Assembly (NCBI GenBank): GCA_012729605.1
Contig: JAAYCV010000060.1
Location: 1 to 46,722, forward strand
From: Ramlibacter sp.
Lineage (GTDB): Bacteria; Pseudomonadota; Gammaproteobacteria; Burkholderiales; Burkholderiaceae_C
Length of the DNA: 46,722 bases
Reading direction: 5' to 3'
The position numbers and the translations under genes were made by a program. Below are positions 3,642 to 16,534 of the stretch, piece by piece. Each line of letters opens with the position of its first letter. The stretch's first letter is position 1. The notes beneath the pieces were generated by a model. It was not told the origin of the DNA. It ran no database searches and saw only the letters and a list, made by a program, of their open reading frames with translations.

Positions 3642-3670
3642 GGCGATCTCCTGGTCAATCAAAGAATGCG

Positions 3671-3687
3671 CCTGCCACGATGGCAGG
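3671..3687. promoter_or_regulatory. Short palindrome in the DUF937/hemE divergent region
   Basis: CCTGCCA, three bases, then TGGCAGG forms a perfect 7-bp inverted repeat midway between the divergent DUF937 and hemE genes. It could be an operator or a leader hairpin. No T run follows on either strand, so a terminator is unlikely. No known regulator site was recognised. Confidence 0.3.
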
Positions 3688-3830
3688 GTTCAGGATCATT
3701 ATGGGCAAGAGTTCATGACCGCCCGGCGAAATGGACGGCAAATCTGGCAAGTGTCTGTAACAGGCGCGATGCCGCGGTGCCGCACCGGGATGCTGCCGCT
3801 TTGCCGCCAATCCCTGCGACAATGCTGTGC

Positions 3831-4952
3831 ATGAACGCTACGACTGCTTTTGCCCCCCTCCAGAACGATACCTTTCTGCGTGCCTGCCGCGGCCAGGCGA
3901 CCGAGTACACGCCGCTGTGGCTGATGCGCCAGGCCGGCCGCTACCTGCCGGAATACCGCGAGACACGCGCCCGCGCCGGCAGCTTCATGGATCTGGCCAT
4001 GAACGTCGATTACGCCACCGAGGTCACGCTGCAGCCGCTGGACCGCTTTGCGCTGGACGCCTCGATCCTGTTCAGCGACATCCTGACGATTCCCGATGCC
4101 ATGGGCCTGGGCCTGAGCTTCCAGCAGGGCGAAGGCCCGAAGTTCGAGAAGAACGTGCGCGATGAAGCCGCCGTGGCCGCGCTGGACGTGCCGGACATGG
4201 ACAAGCTGCGCTACGTGTTTGACGCCGTGACCAGCATCCGCAAGGCGCTGAACGGCCGTGTGCCGCTGATCGGTTTCTCCGGCAGCCCGTGGACGCTGGC
4301 CTGCTACATGGTTGAAGGCGGCAGCAGCAGCGACTACCGCGCCGTCAAGAGCCTGATGTACAGCCGCCCGGACCTGATGCACCGCATCCTGGAAGTCAAC
4401 GCACGCAGCGTGGCAGCCTACCTGAACGCCCAGATCGATGCCGGCGCCCAGGCCGTGATGATTTTTGACAGCTGGGGCGGCGTGCTGGCCGACGGCAAGT
4501 TCCAGGAGTTCAGCCTGGCCTATACCGAACAGGTGCTGGGCCAGCTCAAGCGCACCGGCCCGGACGGTGCCGACATCCCGCGCCTGGTGTTCACCAAGGG
4601 CGGTGGCCTGTGGCTGACGCAGATGAACCTGCTCGATTGCGACGTGCTGGGCGTGGACTGGACCGTCAACCTGGGCGCGGCGCGTGCCTCGCTCTGGATG
4701 CATGGCGAAGGCAAGGCACTGCAGGGCAACCTGGACCCGAACGTGCTGTTTGCCTCGCCCGACAAGGTGGCGGCCGAAGCGCGTGCCGTGCTCGACAGCT
4801 TTGGCACGCCGCACACCGGTGAAGGCCGTGGTCCGACCCACATCTTCAACCTGGGCCATGGCATCAACCAGTTCACCCCGCCGGAGAACGTGACGGCACT
4901 GGTGGAAGCGGTGCACAGCCATTCGCGCGCCATGCGCGTGGCCGCCGCCTAA
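3831..4952 (+). CDS. hemE: Uroporphyrinogen decarboxylase
   Basis: HemE decarboxylates the four acetate side chains of uroporphyrinogen III to give coproporphyrinogen III in haem synthesis. The 373-residue product carries the signature [12 protein letters not shown] near the N-terminus, the substrate-site [29 protein letters not shown], and the C-terminal FNLGHGI. The ATG at 3831 gives the expected length; an in-frame ATG at 3822 is only three codons upstream. An intrinsic terminator follows directly, so hemE is probably not co-transcribed with priA even though both lie on the plus strand. Cytosolic, highly conserved family. Confidence 0.97.
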
Positions 4953-4972
4953 GCGCGCCCTGCCCCCTGGAC

Positions 4973-5001
4973 AACCGCTGGCCTGTGCCAGCGGTTTTTT
5001 T
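4973..5001 (+). terminator. Intrinsic terminator after hemE
   Basis: CCGCTGGC / GCCAGCGG forms a perfect 8-bp GC-rich stem with a CTGT loop, followed directly by seven T residues. It lies about 20 bp past the hemE stop. This is a textbook rho-independent terminator and marks the left edge of the long non-coding region before priA. Confidence 0.93.
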
Positions 5002-5260
5002 ATGGCCAGTGCACAAGTGCATCGCCCATCTGGGGAAAACCGTGGCTGTCAAGCCCGGAAAATGCGGTTTCGAGGCTTGACAACGCAGGGTTATGCACAA
5101 ATGCCGCTCCGCAGATCGATGCCGGCCGTGCTGCCACGTCACTTTCAACTTGGATTTGCAAGTTCTTGAAATTCAATCATTTTTTGATGGCTGCCCAGAA
5201 TCAGCAAGTGGCTGCAAGTGCGCGATTTACCGTCTTGTCCAGTGTCTGCCCAAGGGATAC

Positions 5261-5278
5261 CCACAAAGTTATCCACAG
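5261..5278 (+). repeat. Composite DnaA-box motif, copy 1
   Basis: CCACAAAGTTATCCACAG is identical to copy 2 over 18 bp and to copy 3 over 17 bp. The perfect box TTATCCACA occupies 5269-5277 and a half-box CCACA precedes it on the same strand. The AT-rich element starts 101 bp upstream at 5160. Confidence 0.8.
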
Positions 5279-5612
5279 GGCACCAACAACATTCGGAAAG
5301 GCCAATCAGGACAAGCACTTGGGACCATCTGATGGAGCAGAATGACAAGGAAGCCGTTTAACTGTCATTCAGCCGTCATCCGTGCATTTCCACAACAGCC
5401 TGGGGCAGGCAAATCCGAGCATGGCAGGCGGATTTATGCACATCTGCCAGCACTGCCTCTGAACTGTCATTTGTGTTGCAGCGCAGCAGAATCAGCCCTT
5501 GACAGATTCCGTAAGTTGTTGATTTTCATGAAATTCGTTTTTTGCCACTTATCTAGGCAAAACGCTGGAAGCCATGCAGGACGCGGACTTGGCGCATCGC
5601 TCCCAAGATCAT

Positions 5613-5630
5613 CCACAAAGTTATCCACAG
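5613..5630 (+). repeat. Composite DnaA-box motif, copy 2
   Basis: This is the same 18-bp sequence as copy 1, preceded here by TCAT so that TCATCCACA at 5609-5617 is itself a one-mismatch box. That gives two boxes in tandem. The AT-rich element of this unit starts 100 bp upstream at 5513. Confidence 0.8.
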
Positions 5631-5698
5631 GAGCTGTGGGTGAGGCCCGGCCCTGTGGAAAGCCAGCAGATACGCGGCCTGCCAGCCACCCCCTCTCA

Positions 5699-5761
5699 CA
5701 AGCCAGCAAGGGCGCGGGTTGGCGGGGAACCTGTGCGCCAGGCCACGTCCTTGCTGGCTTG
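5699..5761. repeat. 13-bp perfect inverted repeat between repeat units 2 and 3
   Basis: CAAGCCAGCAAGG at 5699-5711 is matched by CCTTGCTGGCTTG at 5749-5761 with 37 bp between. Further partial pairing is possible inside (GGCGC with GCGCC). It could form a long hairpin in RNA or a cruciform in DNA. No T run follows, so it does not look like an intrinsic terminator. Confidence 0.6.
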
Positions 5762-6000
5762 CCGGCAGGCTGGATAAACGCACAGCCCAGCCTGGCAAAA
5801 AATTGGCGGCAATGGCTGCACCCGCACGATTTATCCCCATTTTTGTGCTAGCCCCTGTCATGGCACAGAAAAAGCCCGGCAGATTCCTGACGCAAACGCA
5901 AGTTATTGATTTTTATCAAATTTGTCTTTTTGCCCATTTTTGCCGCAAAGTGCTCAAAGCCTTGAAGGACGCGCACTTGCGCGCTCCACCCCCAAGACAT

Positions 6001-6017
6001 CCACAAAGTTATCCACA
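6001..6017 (+). repeat. Composite DnaA-box motif, copy 3
   Basis: CCACAAAGTTATCCACA is followed by A instead of G. The perfect box is at 6009-6017, only about 70 bp before the priA start, so bound DnaA could interfere with or activate priA transcription. The AT-rich element, containing the palindrome TTGAT-TTTT-ATCAA, begins 100 bp upstream at 5901. Confidence 0.8.
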
Positions 6018-6086
6018 ATTGCTGGGGAATGTGCACAACTGTGCTTTTTGCCTCTGGAGCGGGCCGGAACGGGTAAAGTACCGGCC

Positions 6087-8210
<2,124 letters not shown>

Positions 8211-12898: not shown

Positions 12899-13825
12899 GC
12901 GATTCCGTTCGTGCTCCGGCTCGACCGTGACCGCCACCTCCAGCGCGCCGCCACGGCTGCCGTTGATAACGCCGCGCAGCGGTGACACATCGCTGAAATC
13001 GCGGCCCAGCGCCACACGCACATAGTCCTCGCCCGGCGTGTCCCAGCCCCAGCGATTGTTGGTCGGATCCAGATCCAGCCAGCCGCCGGGTGGATGATCC
13101 GGATCGGCATCGGCCGGTTGCAGGTCCGGCAGCCAGACCGAAGCCCAGGCGTGCGAGGCATCGGCACCGCGCAGGCGCGGCTGGCCCGGTGGCGGCTGCG
13201 TCAGCAGGTAGCCGCTCACATAGCGCGCCGCCAGCCCCTGCGCGCGCAGGCAGGACAGCAGCACATGGGCAAAGTCCTGGCAGACGCCGGCGCGCTGCTG
13301 CAGCACCTCGCTGGCAGTGGTGCCGGTGCCGGTGCTGCCGCTGCGGTAGATGAAATCCTGGTAGATGCGCTGCATCAACTCGATGGCGGCATCGTGCAAG
13401 GAACGGCCTGCCGCAAACGAGGGTCGGGCATATTCGGCGGCCAGCGCATCGGCCGCCGCATACTGCGAGGCAAACACGAAGATATGCGCCGGATCGTAGG
13501 GACCGCCGCTGCGGTAGACAAAGCGCTCTCGCACCTGCTCCCATGGCAGCTGGCTGCGGGCGGCGCGTGACGGCTGCGTCTCCACCACGGCCTGCGATGT
13601 CACCGAAAGCACATCGTGCGGTGCCGTGAGTGCAAACCAGGAGGTGGTGTTGCCAAAAATATCCTGCTGCGTCTCGATGTCGCCCGGATCAGGAGCTATC
13701 AGCAGCTGGTGCTGCAGGCACTGCTGCGCCGGCGTATCGGCCGGGCGCAGGAACACTTGATGCAAGGCATTGTCGACCATGTCGCCATAGCGGTAGTGCG
13801 TCTCGTGCGTGACATGCAGCTTCAT
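12887..13825 (-). CDS. Transglutaminase-like cysteine protease family protein
   Basis: A 312-residue protein with the bacterial transglutaminase N-terminal domain (MKLHVTHETHYRYGD) and a papain-like core. The catalytic Cys is in RAGVCQDFAH, His in ADASHAWAS and Asp in GWLDLDPTN, so it should be an active hydrolase or transferase. The start overlaps the stop of the upstream ATP-grasp/alpha-E gene in an ATGA junction, so the two are translated together. Comparative genomics has linked this trio of domains to an uncharacterised peptide-tagging or peptide-synthesis system; no substrate is known. Confidence 0.9.
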   Translation of the reverse strand: MKLHVTHETHYRYGDMVDNALHQVFLRPADTPAQQCLQHQLLIAPDPGDIETQQDIFGNTTSWFALTAPHDVLSVTSQAVVETQPSRAARSQLPWEQVRERFVYRSGGPYDPAHIFVFASQYAAADALAAEYARPSFAAGRSLHDAAIELMQRIYQDFIYRSGSTGTGTTASEVLQQRAGVCQDFAHVLLSCLRAQGLAARYVSGYLLTQPPPGQPRLRGADASHAWASVWLPDLQPADADPDHPPGGWLDLDPTNNRWGWDTPGEDYVRVALGRDFSDVSPLRGVINGSRGGALEVAVTVEPEHERNRSEA

Positions 13826-16449
13826 GCCAGCCTCCCTTCGCGCAGGCCGTGCAGGGTCTGGTGCGTCACCACGCTGGTGTGGGTGAAATAGCGCTGCGAC
13901 AGTGCGGCCGACAAGGCCAGCCCGCCTTGCATGCACTGCTGCAGCAGCACATGCAGCGCGCCGTGGTGGCCATCGCTATCGGCCTGGGACAGCTGCGCCA
14001 GCGGCACTTCGCCGGGCTTGGGCAGTAGCAGGCGCAGATCGGCCATGTCGGCATCGCGCCTACCACGCTGCAACCGCTCCATGCGTCGCTCCAGCGTGTA
14101 GGCGACCCAGCCGAGCGCGCGCGGGTTTTCCCGGCTGTGTACCAGCAGCTGCAGCAGGTCAGTCAGGTCGTGGCTGTGCTGGTAGTAGGCGTGGAAGGTG
14201 ATGGTGCTGTCAAACAGCGCCAGCACCGCTTCAAAACCGTCCTCTTCCTGCACCACGCGCGCGGCAAAGGCCTGGTCCAGCGCATGCGCCAGGAACACCA
14301 GGCGCTCGATCATGCGGCCGCTCGACAACACGATCCAGCCGTCATCGCGCGTCATGCGGTCGAGCTGCGAACCGGTGATCGCCGTCATGCGCTGGCTCAG
14401 TCGGCGCAGCATGTGCTGTGCGCTATCCAAGCGGTAATCCTGCTCGCGCAGCAGCCGGTCACCGTCCTCGACAAAGCCCTGCTCGGCCGCACGCAGCTCC
14501 TGCCAGTGCTCATTCGCCAGCCGGTCACGCACGCGCGATGCCGTGCCGTGCAGCCAGGCCAGCTGCTGGCGGATCATGCCCTGCCCATCTGCACCAGCCA
14601 GGCCATCGATCAGGCTGCGCAGGCAGCCGGCCGGATCGTCCGCCAGCAGCGGCGCAGCAGATTCCGGCAGCAGCCCCTGGTCGCGCAACAGGCCATCGAG
14701 CCAGTGCAGCAGTGCGGGCGAGGCACGCTCCTCGCCTGACAGCAGGTTGAGCACCAGCTGCACGGTGGCCACGCTGTTCTCGACACGCTCGGTATAGCGC
14801 CCCATCCAGAACAGGTTGTCGGCGGCACGGCTGGTCACCAGCCAACCGCGCAGCGAGGTCGGCATGCCGCTGGCGACCGGCTGCAGGATGCCCGGCGGAT
14901 GGCCAGTCTCGGTCGCATCATCCGGCGCCTGCACCCAGACGTCGGCACTGGAACCGCCGGAGCGCATCGCCGACAGGCCGCTGCTCTCGCCCACCAGCCG
15001 CACCAGACCGCCCGGCACCACGCGCCATTCTCCCGGCGCATCGGCCACGCAGAACACGCGCAGCAGCGCCGGTCGGAAGCCGGCTTGACCGTCCTGCCCC
15101 GGCGCACCCGCGTGCCAGACCGGCATGCTGGACGGCTGCAGGTAGCGCTGGATGGTGTAATCCTCGCCCCGCGCCAGGATGCGCTGCACCCATTGCTGGC
15201 GTTGTTCCGGCGTCAGCAGGCGTGACAGCACCGGATCAAAGGCCTTGCGCTGTGGCACGCCATCCGGATGCGCGGCCGGATAGGTCGCCTTGATCACGCA
15301 GTCATCAATCTGTGCCAACGCTTCGGGCAACACCGCCTGCTCGCCGCACCACCAGGTATGCAGCGCCGGCAGCTGCAGCTCCTCACCCAGCAGCCGCGGC
15401 CCCAGCGCTGGCAAAAAGCCGAGCATGGCGCTGGATTCAAGAAAACCGCTGCCCGGCAGGTTCGACACGATCACGCTGCCAGCGCGGATCGCCTGCAGCA
15501 GGCCCGGCACGCCCAGCTGCGAATCGGAGCGCAGCTCCAGCGGATCGAGATACTGGTCGTCGACGCGCTTGAGCAGCACATCGACCTGCTCCAGCCCGTG
15601 CAGGGTCTTGAGATAGAGCTTGCGCTCGCGCACCGTCAGGTCGCTGCCCTCGACCAGCGTAATGCCCAGATAGCGCGCCAGATAGGCCTGCTCGAAATAG
15701 GTTTCATTCAACGGCCCAGGTGTCAGCATGGCGATATGGGCGCGCTCGCCAACCGGGCTGCGCCGGCGCAGGCTGGCCACCATGGCGCGGTAGACCGTGG
15801 GCAGGCGCTGCACGCGCATGCGGTCCAGCGCCTGCGGAAACTGCTGCGCCACCACATGGCGGTTTTCCAGCATATAGCCCAGGCCGGCCGGCGCCTGCAG
15901 CCGCTGCGACACCACCCACCAGGCACCGTTCTCATCACGGGACAGGTCGAAGGCCGCGGTGTGCACATGCATGCCGCCAGCCGGTTGCACGCCATGCATG
16001 CCCGGGATGTAATCGGGATGGCCCAGTACGAGCGCCGGCGGCAGCAGGCCTTCGTGCAGCAGGTGCTGCGGACCGTAGACGTCGGCCATCACCCGGTCCA
16101 GCAGGCGCGTACGCTGCAGCACGCCTTGCTCGATCTGCTGCCAGTCGGCCGTGGGCAGCAGCAGCGGAAACAGGTCGAGCGACCAGGGCCGCTGCACCTG
16201 GCCATCGTGGGAGTGGACGTTGTAGCTGACGTCGTTGTCGCGGATATGGCGCTGCAGCGCCTGCACACGCTCGTCCAGGCTGGCCGGCGTGTGCGGCTGG
16301 CTGGCAAAAAAGGTCTGCCAGTACGGCGCCAGGCCACCCGGTGCCGCCAGCAGCGCTGGCAGGCTGCCGCCACCACTGGCCTCGGCGTCCGTCACGGCAC
16401 GGCCGTGCAACTCGCTGAAGTGCGGCTGCGCGATTCCGGCCTGGCTCAT
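13822..16449 (-). CDS. Circularly permuted ATP-grasp protein fused to an alpha-E domain
   Basis: An 875-residue protein with two parts that are separate genes in many bacteria. Residues of about 50-500 match the circularly permuted ATP-grasp family (DUF404/DUF407): RDNDVSYNVHSHDG, LLDRVMADVYGPQ, LTPGPLNETYFEQAYLARYLG and VIVSNLPGSGFLES. From about residue 527 the alpha-E helical domain (DUF403) begins with SRAADNLFWMGRYTERVEN. ATP-grasp enzymes join a carboxylate to an amine, so this is probably a peptide ligase of unknown substrate. The ATG at 16449 is preferred over an upstream start at 16530. It is coupled to the transglutaminase downstream. Confidence 0.9.
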   Translation of the reverse strand: MSQAGIAQPHFSELHGRAVTDAEASGGGSLPALLAAPGGLAPYWQTFFASQPHTPASLDERVQALQRHIRDNDVSYNVHSHDGQVQRPWSLDLFPLLLPTADWQQIEQGVLQRTRLLDRVMADVYGPQHLLHEGLLPPALVLGHPDYIPGMHGVQPAGGMHVHTAAFDLSRDENGAWWVVSQRLQAPAGLGYMLENRHVVAQQFPQALDRMRVQRLPTVYRAMVASLRRRSPVGERAHIAMLTPGPLNETYFEQAYLARYLGITLVEGSDLTVRERKLYLKTLHGLEQVDVLLKRVDDQYLDPLELRSDSQLGVPGLLQAIRAGSVIVSNLPGSGFLESSAMLGFLPALGPRLLGEELQLPALHTWWCGEQAVLPEALAQIDDCVIKATYPAAHPDGVPQRKAFDPVLSRLLTPEQRQQWVQRILARGEDYTIQRYLQPSSMPVWHAGAPGQDGQAGFRPALLRVFCVADAPGEWRVVPGGLVRLVGESSGLSAMRSGGSSADVWVQAPDDATETGHPPGILQPVASGMPTSLRGWLVTSRAADNLFWMGRYTERVENSVATVQLVLNLLSGEERASPALLHWLDGLLRDQGLLPESAAPLLADDPAGCLRSLIDGLAGADGQGMIRQQLAWLHGTASRVRDRLANEHWQELRAAEQGFVEDGDRLLREQDYRLDSAQHMLRRLSQRMTAITGSQLDRMTRDDGWIVLSSGRMIERLVFLAHALDQAFAARVVQEEDGFEAVLALFDSTITFHAYYQHSHDLTDLLQLLVHSRENPRALGWVAYTLERRMERLQRGRRDADMADLRLLLPKPGEVPLAQLSQADSDGHHGALHVLLQQCMQGGLALSAALSQRYFTHTSVVTHQTLHGLREGRLA

Positions 16450-16534
16450 GGGATCTGTCTCTGTCACGCTCTGTCCATCATCCGTGCTGATGGCCCCATT
16501 GTGCCGCAGGCATGGCCTGCGGACCGGCACAGGC

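Follow-up and report, generated by a model that had tools for sequence, protein, structure and literature searches.

What role does a dense cluster of DnaA boxes play between hemE and priA, and which of the known kinds of DnaA-binding site does its arrangement resemble? This question arises from a 46,722-base stretch of DNA (the window), which belongs to a draft genome of 2.27 Mb in 295 contigs; the genus label Brachymonas is used here for the window genome together with the sibling genomes in our comparisons. An initial annotation had pointed out five exact TTATNCACA sites on the plus strand (5091, 5269, 5434, 5621 and 6009), and we found these to be the only exact sites in the window; 100 shuffles of the window yielded on average 0.27 such sites and never more than 2. 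Five of the 16 exact sites of the whole draft genome are located in the hemE-priA gap, and the next cluster has three sites, which lie at the start of mnmG and upstream of it.

Three units of DnaA boxes and predicted IHF sites

The boxes form three units of one common layout, namely a distal box A, an interval of 68–78 bp, a predicted IHF site, an interval of 109–110 bp and a strong box B2, with a weak box B1 placed 12 bp before B2. The features of the region are listed below in window coordinates.

3666..4952 (+): hemE, uroporphyrinogen decarboxylase, the upstream neighbour (PF01208, E 3e-129)
4973..4996 (+): terminator-like hairpin with a T run between hemE and the array; 10-pair stem just past the hemE stop
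5091..5099 (+): unit 1, distal box A, TTATGCACA
5159..5171 (-): unit 1, IHF-like site TTTCAAGAACTTG with one mismatch
5257..5265 (+): unit 1, weak box B1, ATACCCACA; box B3 absent (6 mismatches)
5269..5277 (+): unit 1, strong box B2, TTATCCACA
5434..5442 (+): unit 2, distal box A, TTATGCACA
5512..5524 (-): unit 2, exact IHF consensus, AATCAACAACTTA
5609..5617 (+): unit 2, core box B1, TCATCCACA
5621..5629 (+): unit 2, core box B2, TTATCCACA
5635..5643 (-): unit 2, inverted core box B3, TCACCCACA, two mismatches, 14 bp past B2
5831..5839 (+): unit 3, distal box A variant, TTATCCCCA
5899..5911 (-): unit 3, exact IHF consensus, AATCAATAACTTG
5997..6005 (+): unit 3, weak box B1, ACATCCACA
6009..6017 (+): unit 3, strong box B2, TTATCCACA; place of B3 degenerate (4 mismatches)
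6030..6038 (-): extra inverted box after unit 3, TTGTGCACA, also present in genome G001
6087..8210 (+): priA, replication-restart helicase, the downstream neighbour (PF17764, PF18074, PF18319, PF00270)

Counted from B2 as position 0, box A lies at -178, -187 and -178 in units 1, 2 and 3 (first-to-last box spans of 178, 187 and 178 bp), and the predicted IHF site at -110 (minus strand, one mismatch), -109 (exact) and -110 (exact), that is, 68, 78 and 68 bp after box A and 110, 109 and 110 bp before B2; unit 2 has in addition B1 at -12 and the inverted B3 at +14. The three-unit organization with conserved spacing described in the initial annotation therefore holds, as does its almost invariant motif, since CCACAAAGTTATCCACA, which contains the weak box B1, is the same in all three units. 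The elements that had been regarded as AT-rich blocks at a fixed spacing keep that spacing, but their identity is different: they are matches on the minus strand to the IHF consensus WATCAANNNNTTR, exact in units 2 and 3 and with one mismatch in unit 1. The one-mismatch box at 5831 (TTATCCCCA) is present and occupies the true position of box A, which the same variant holds in ten loci of other genera. Two further one-mismatch boxes in the gap, TCATCCACA at 5609 (+) and TTGTGCACA at 6030 (-), had been missed. The hairpin past hemE was the only one found in a scan for terminator-like structures, against 2.0 expected in shuffles, and this count is weak evidence when taken alone. A reading of TTGATTTTTATCAA in unit 3 as an FNR/ANR site was dropped on inspection by eye, because the other units lose the palindrome while the IHF consensus is kept.

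Identity between the units within the window is 40–54%. A tree built from 14 units of four Brachymonas genomes groups the four unit-1 copies in one clade (support 0.99), and units at the same position pair between close species; deeper joins among the units other than unit 1 are weakly supported. The unit-1 clade indicates that the tandem copies, at least unit 1, predate the split of these species. Selection on geometry with decayed sequence had been suggested at the outset, and this suggestion is borne out by the low identity together with a spacing that is conserved in Betaproteobacteria (see below); as far as can be judged from the sequences, the geometry of the unit has outlived its sequence. 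The array is interrupted in some relatives: in B. denitrificans, an AlkB-like 2OG-Fe(II) oxygenase gene (PF13532) is located between units 3 and 4 (L085:4073-4702), and a similar gap in the array is seen in the sibling G002 (L237).

The chromosomal origin and the position of priA

The first possibility that had been raised was that the gap is the chromosomal replication origin, for which the density of its DnaA boxes and IHF sites and its raised AT content would be suitable. Since dnaA is not followed by dnaN according to the translations, dnaA alone gives no origin position. The dnaA gene (L002:6893-9432, contig C64 of G000) adjoins rnpA, and a 0.7-kb stretch upstream of it has no TTATNCACA within one mismatch; the usual origin layout is dnaA-dnaN. 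GC skew was computed for 40 sampled slices of the near-complete sibling G002, which has a contig of 2,711,532 bases, the window's own genome being in 295 contigs. Skew in G002 is mostly positive to about 0.97 Mb, mostly negative to about 2.26 Mb and then positive again. The latter sign change, at about 2.24–2.38 Mb, coincides with mnmG (2.310 Mb), whereas the hemE-priA gap at 1.79 Mb (priA at 1.791 Mb) lies inside one arm, 519 kb from the switch. Two slices of the negative arm are exceptional, one at 1.292 Mb (+0.004) and one at 1.768 Mb (+0.023), and the latter, a 20-kb slice beside the locus, could be taken in favour of an origin there; one odd slice is, however, not an arm-wide switch. No trio-like track was seen in the gap by eye. 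The skew of G002 and the position of mnmG thus speak against the hemE-priA gap as the replication origin, a reading which we now reject as highly improbable. The positive skew of the slice beside the locus (L174) may perhaps reflect a local inversion.

Upstream of mnmG, DnaA boxes are located next to a GC-rich step and a track rich in AT and CTA, and such a track next to DnaA boxes is the usual appearance of an unwinding region; we take this one to be a DnaA-trio. Origin-like stretches of this kind were noted at L003:4600-4850 (contig C31 of G000) and L241:900-1250 (G002), and the true Brachymonas origin is probably located upstream of mnmG. The distance between priA and mnmG was computed in 4 of 22 genomes, those with closed or very long contigs, and amounts to 490–653 kb (0.24–0.38 of half the contig). 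Distances obtained by subtraction in other genomes extend from about 11 kb to more than 1 Mb, and because of this spread the position of priA cannot be regarded as fixed across the order.

Conservation in Betaproteobacteria and across the class

We collected loci on the basis of PriA homologues (30 loci from 100 relatives and 80 from public genomes) and used 107 of them; the window itself (L004) and L006, which shares a contig with L085, were left out, and L071 had no upstream sequence. In 98 of the 107 loci, the 450 bp preceding the PriA match contain a plus-strand TTRTCCACA, and among the nine loci lacking it within this distance some have a variant box. Relative to TTRTCCACA, exact minus-strand IHF sites occur at 107–112 bp (61) and at 121 bp (1) and nowhere else between 60 and 180 bp, so that an exact IHF match is lacking over this range in 36 or more of the 98 loci. 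Direct boxes with up to one mismatch occur at 175–179 bp (18) and 184–191 bp (73), with six elsewhere in 120–230 bp, one locus possibly counting at several offsets. The spacing is therefore conserved in relatives across Betaproteobacteria, mostly as a single unit, and the lack of conserved spacing which the initial annotation had named as a refutation was not observed. Related genomes are not independent, and for this reason we claim no p-value for any of the conservation counts.

The smaller boxes were examined in 138 rows of box pairs 160–200 bp apart, in which one locus can give several rows and some rows are spurious neighbour pairs. B1 is present at 12 bp in 110 of the 131 rows used for this box, and never at offsets of 9–11 or 13–19 bp. 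An inverted B3 with up to two mismatches is present 14 bp past B2 in 30 of the 138 rows, against 0–4 rows at every other offset from 9 to 30; the main weakness in Betaproteobacteria is that B3 has more than two mismatches in the other 108 rows. Where betaproteobacterial modules contain just one exact IHF site (90 modules), the interval from A to IHF is 65–69 bp (10), 76–80 bp (72) or 88–90 bp (8), classes that differ stepwise by about one helical turn, while that from IHF to B2 is 109–111 bp in 82. For the IHF site of E. coli DARS2, a shift toward FBS2-3 by 5 bp did more harm than one by 10 bp (PMC4245941), which speaks for the DARS-like reading discussed below.

The exact pattern TTATGCACA-N165..195-TTATCCACA gave 51 matches in 45 of the 100 relatives, and the same pattern written backwards gave none. 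Of these matches, 49 are located upstream of priA on the same strand within 829 bp, one is at a contig end and one is elsewhere in G097. The last of these, an exact A-B2 pair off the priA contig (contig C43, L239:2257-2443), represents an additional or moved copy of the module. Single units predominate, and most single-copy loci have B2 about 63 to 250 bp before priA; two to four units occur in Acidovorax, Paracidovorax and others, and three or four in Brachymonas. In principle, the window array might be a chance cluster or the decayed repeat of a mobile element, and its tandem layout and the low mutual identity of its units would suit such an explanation. This is scarcely credible in view of the number of exact boxes expected in the window by shuffling, the conserved spacing with zero matches for the backwards controls and the orthologous units that are common to Brachymonas genomes.

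For a wider view, we searched a sample of 369 genomes of the class, which we take to be Gammaproteobacteria in the GTDB sense; four of them belong to the window's order. A box-IHF-box pattern, with neither B1 nor B3 in the query, was found in 65 of the 369 genomes, and its backwards control in none. The first 30 loci listed have A-IHF intervals of 77–81 bp and IHF-B2 intervals of 108–112 bp. B1 is present at 12 bp in all 30; of the 29 loci long enough to be examined for the inverted B3, 26 have it at 14 bp, compared with 0–2 of 29 at other offsets from 9 to 30. When the exact core (B1-12-B2-14-inverted B3) was instead used alone, it was found in 158 of the 369 genomes, again with no match of the backwards control, but in none of the four genomes of the window's order in this sample, the window's own included, because B3 there is too weak for the exact pattern. 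Among the first-listed core loci, of which 29 of 30 were used (L272 was too short), a direct box A with up to one mismatch is present at 174–200 bp in 28, at distances of 176–199 bp, while the opposite strand has one box hit over all offsets from 120 to 230. An exact IHF site at 95–113 bp is present in only 4 of the 29 core loci; when one mismatch is allowed, 19 hits are at 99 or 109–111 bp and two elsewhere. The phased box A in 28 of 29 loci indicates that this box belongs with the core even where the IHF site is weak. Both sets of 30 are the first listed, one per genome, and not random samples, and at least one place is common to both. Distances within the module are kept to the helical turn across very diverse bacteria. 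Among the matches listed, G304 (contig C62:64822-64858) and G182 (contig C16:2909-2945) have exact cores that overlap on both strands, 7 bp apart, as palindromic double DARS cores.

The gene neighbourhood bears on another possibility, namely that the module is mainly a DnaA/IHF switch for transcription of priA, which would couple the supply of the restart helicase to initiation. Such a switch would be consistent with the 49 exact matches placed upstream of priA on its strand, with B2 of unit 3 lying 78 bp before the priA start, and with PriA being encoded in 14 of the 30 box-IHF-box loci (the window among them) and in 11 of the 30 loci chosen by the core. The remaining class loci, however, have no PriA within about 1.5 kb on either side, and other genes flank the module there, such as aroE-, hemW- and maeB-like genes (named from translations alone). 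Moreover, the distance from B2 to priA varies while the inner geometry is constant, and a plain switch has no need of three units. A scan for sigma-70-like promoters at 4900–6200 found none, against 0.4 expected, which is weak evidence. We therefore consider it unlikely that switching of priA is the main role.

Comparison with DnaA-control elements of E. coli

To our knowledge, control of the DnaA nucleotide state by DNA sites has been worked out mainly in E. coli, and the original paper on DARS is reportedly that of Fujimitsu in 2009. We extracted the E. coli elements from NC_000913 and scored the core over 24 positions. DARS1 has 2 mismatches, DARS2 3 and unit 2 of the window likewise 3, whereas the best match in datA has 6 and the oriC stretch has no match at 6 or fewer. 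The order and spacing of the three-box core of DARS are found in unit 2 only; units 1 and 3 keep B1 and B2 without B3 and for this reason are not complete by this feature. A predicted IHF site flanking the core, as in DARS2, is present in all units, 109–110 bp before B2. The location between hemE and priA differs from those of DARS1 (by uvrB) and DARS2 (by mutH) and rules out orthology to either, and the array is accordingly filed as DARS-like. Both DARS cores hold three DnaA boxes (PMC4245941); the spacing of these boxes was measured here.

DARS1 (bioD-uvrB) resembles the module in its core and in a direct TTATCCCCA 209 bp before B2, one helical turn beyond the 198 class. Unlike the window array, it is a single copy in a different gene neighbourhood and has no IHF match with up to one mismatch in the 240 bp before B2. 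DARS2 (rppH-mutH), which also has another neighbourhood, carries an IHF-like site (one mismatch) on the same strand and a strong box TTATCCACA 197 bp before B2, but the IHF site is one turn closer (99 vs 110 bp), the box is inverted, and the element needs the Fis sites FBS2-3 (PMC4245941). The left DnaA-oligomerisation region of oriC likewise combines DnaA boxes with an IHF site (PMC10380432), but oriC has a DUE (PMC10380432), a different box layout and no core match at 6 mismatches or fewer. DARS2, DARS1 and the present array (L202, L235 and window 5091-6087) all lie beside genes of DNA repair or restart, mutH, uvrB and priA, respectively.

datA was favoured at first, because its IHF-to-box distance agrees with that of the window to about 1 bp. 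When its box 3 is taken as B1, the distal boxes of datA fall at -186/-174 and its exact IHF match at -109, with unchanged orientations, near -187/-178 and -109/-110 in the window, so that an IHF site lies between boxes of one direction in both and the A-IHF-B1 spacing of the array is within 1–4 bp of that of datA. The datA box set (tandem pair, IBS, box 3 and inverted box) and its tRNA-Gly/queG neighbourhood were not found in the array, which has no inverted box 12 bp after B1. According to this reading, IHF would bring box A and the B boxes together, and hydrolysis of ATP-DnaA (DDAH) or titration would delay re-initiation. The essential boxes of datA have one direction with IHF between them and a spacing that is important (PMC5742627, PMC10380432), as A, B1 and B2 do in direction, and the DARS-specific box B3 is weak in Betaproteobacteria. 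However, the B1-12-B2-14-inverted-B3 core, a constant of the class-wide loci, is missing from datA; the box after box 3 of datA is inverted at 12 bp, and the tandem pair of datA is located across IHF from that of the window, which lies on the B side. As a working identification, datA was demoted once the inverted box at 14 bp was found. The agreement in spacing stands, and we keep a datA-like function as a rival that is possible but rather doubtful. Separately, the similarity of box-IHF-box distances in datA (L201:933-1127) hints at a common descent of datA and DARS.

As the module has its core in common with DARS and its bent arm in common with datA, it combines both. We have taken the core as decisive over the datA-like arm because searches blind to the core recover it, which is a matter of judgement. 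The arrangement of boxes fits a DARS site better than plain titration, and on this comparison of sequences we consider it reasonably probable that an ancient DARS-like module for DnaA reactivation is present in three tandem copies in the hemE-priA gap. The likelihoods assigned to this reading, to the datA-like one and to a priA switch as the main role may overlap. DnaA and IHF probably assemble at fixed distances on each unit. By analogy with work on E. coli, ADP-DnaA would oligomerise on the three-box core, and IHF would bend the DNA sharply about midway so that DnaA on box A could meet the core oligomer. This contact would cause DnaA to release ADP, and after rebinding ATP it could initiate another replication round at the actual origin near mnmG. 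Box A may thereby play, or help with, the role of Fis at E. coli DARS2, and three copies may raise or buffer the reactivating activity.

The required proteins are largely encoded in the window genome. Its one DnaA, found by the C-terminal domain, is identical to E. coli DnaA at 228 of 467 E. coli residues and keeps Lys178, Arg285, Leu290 and Arg334. Arg227, a residue named for DARS2 activity (PMC4245941), is replaced by His, which counts against the DARS-like reading. Hda and both IHF alpha and IHF beta are encoded, the latter two each above at least one curated cut-off, and a Fis-like protein scores just below its cut-offs (117.4 and 88.7 bits vs 122 and 99).

Several other points also argue against a DARS-like module: B3 is weak in Betaproteobacteria and missing from units 1 and 3, datA has nearly the same A-IHF-B1 spacing, the exact core is absent from the four sampled genomes of the window's order, nine of the 107 loci lack TTRTCCACA within 450 bp of PriA, and many loci have no exact IHF site. 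DARS2 has its IHF site at 99 instead of 110 bp and its distal box inverted, and DARS1 has no IHF match with up to one mismatch. In addition, PMC4245941 reports that boxes IV-VI of DARS2 are dispensable, that shifts of the IHF site toward the core by either 5 or 10 bp are harmful, and that the DARS2 core is specific to gamma-proteobacteria related to E. coli. Elsewhere, DARS2 spacing is described as conserved in E. coli-proximal beta- or gamma-proteobacteria (PMC5742627), and DARS1/2-like sequences as conserved in many proteobacteria (PMC10380432), so the hemE-priA locus may already be listed. The accessible parts of PMC3135505, PMC10380432, PMC10950094, PMC12371093, PMC4585315, PMC5742627 and PMC4245941 mention neither a hemE-priA element nor a distal DnaA box that is conserved in DARS.

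More broadly, we put forward as a tentative proposal, which may well prove wrong, that the box-IHF-core arrangement is a common and probably ancestral module for nucleotide control of DnaA in the broad Gammaproteobacteria including Betaproteobacteria, that a distal box placed near 189 bp, give or take one helical turn, is a general and so far unremarked functional part of DARS, and that E. coli datA and DARS1/2 are divergent descendants, datA having kept the bent loop and DARS the core. What is new in this finding is the distal box with its helical phasing, and the module predicts that this box is a functional DARS part. If the proposal is true, its repeated place upstream of priA would tie recharging of DnaA to replication restart, and Brachymonas would have amplified the module to three or four copies, such multi-copy arrays being natural dosage variants. 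The conserved and easily found box-bend-core module would offer a concrete target site in Betaproteobacteria, and the relation between inactivation by datA and reactivation by DARS would become testable by swapping cores on one bent scaffold. Elsewhere in the window, positions 13822-16530 on the minus strand encode a circularly permuted ATP-grasp and alpha-E domain protein.
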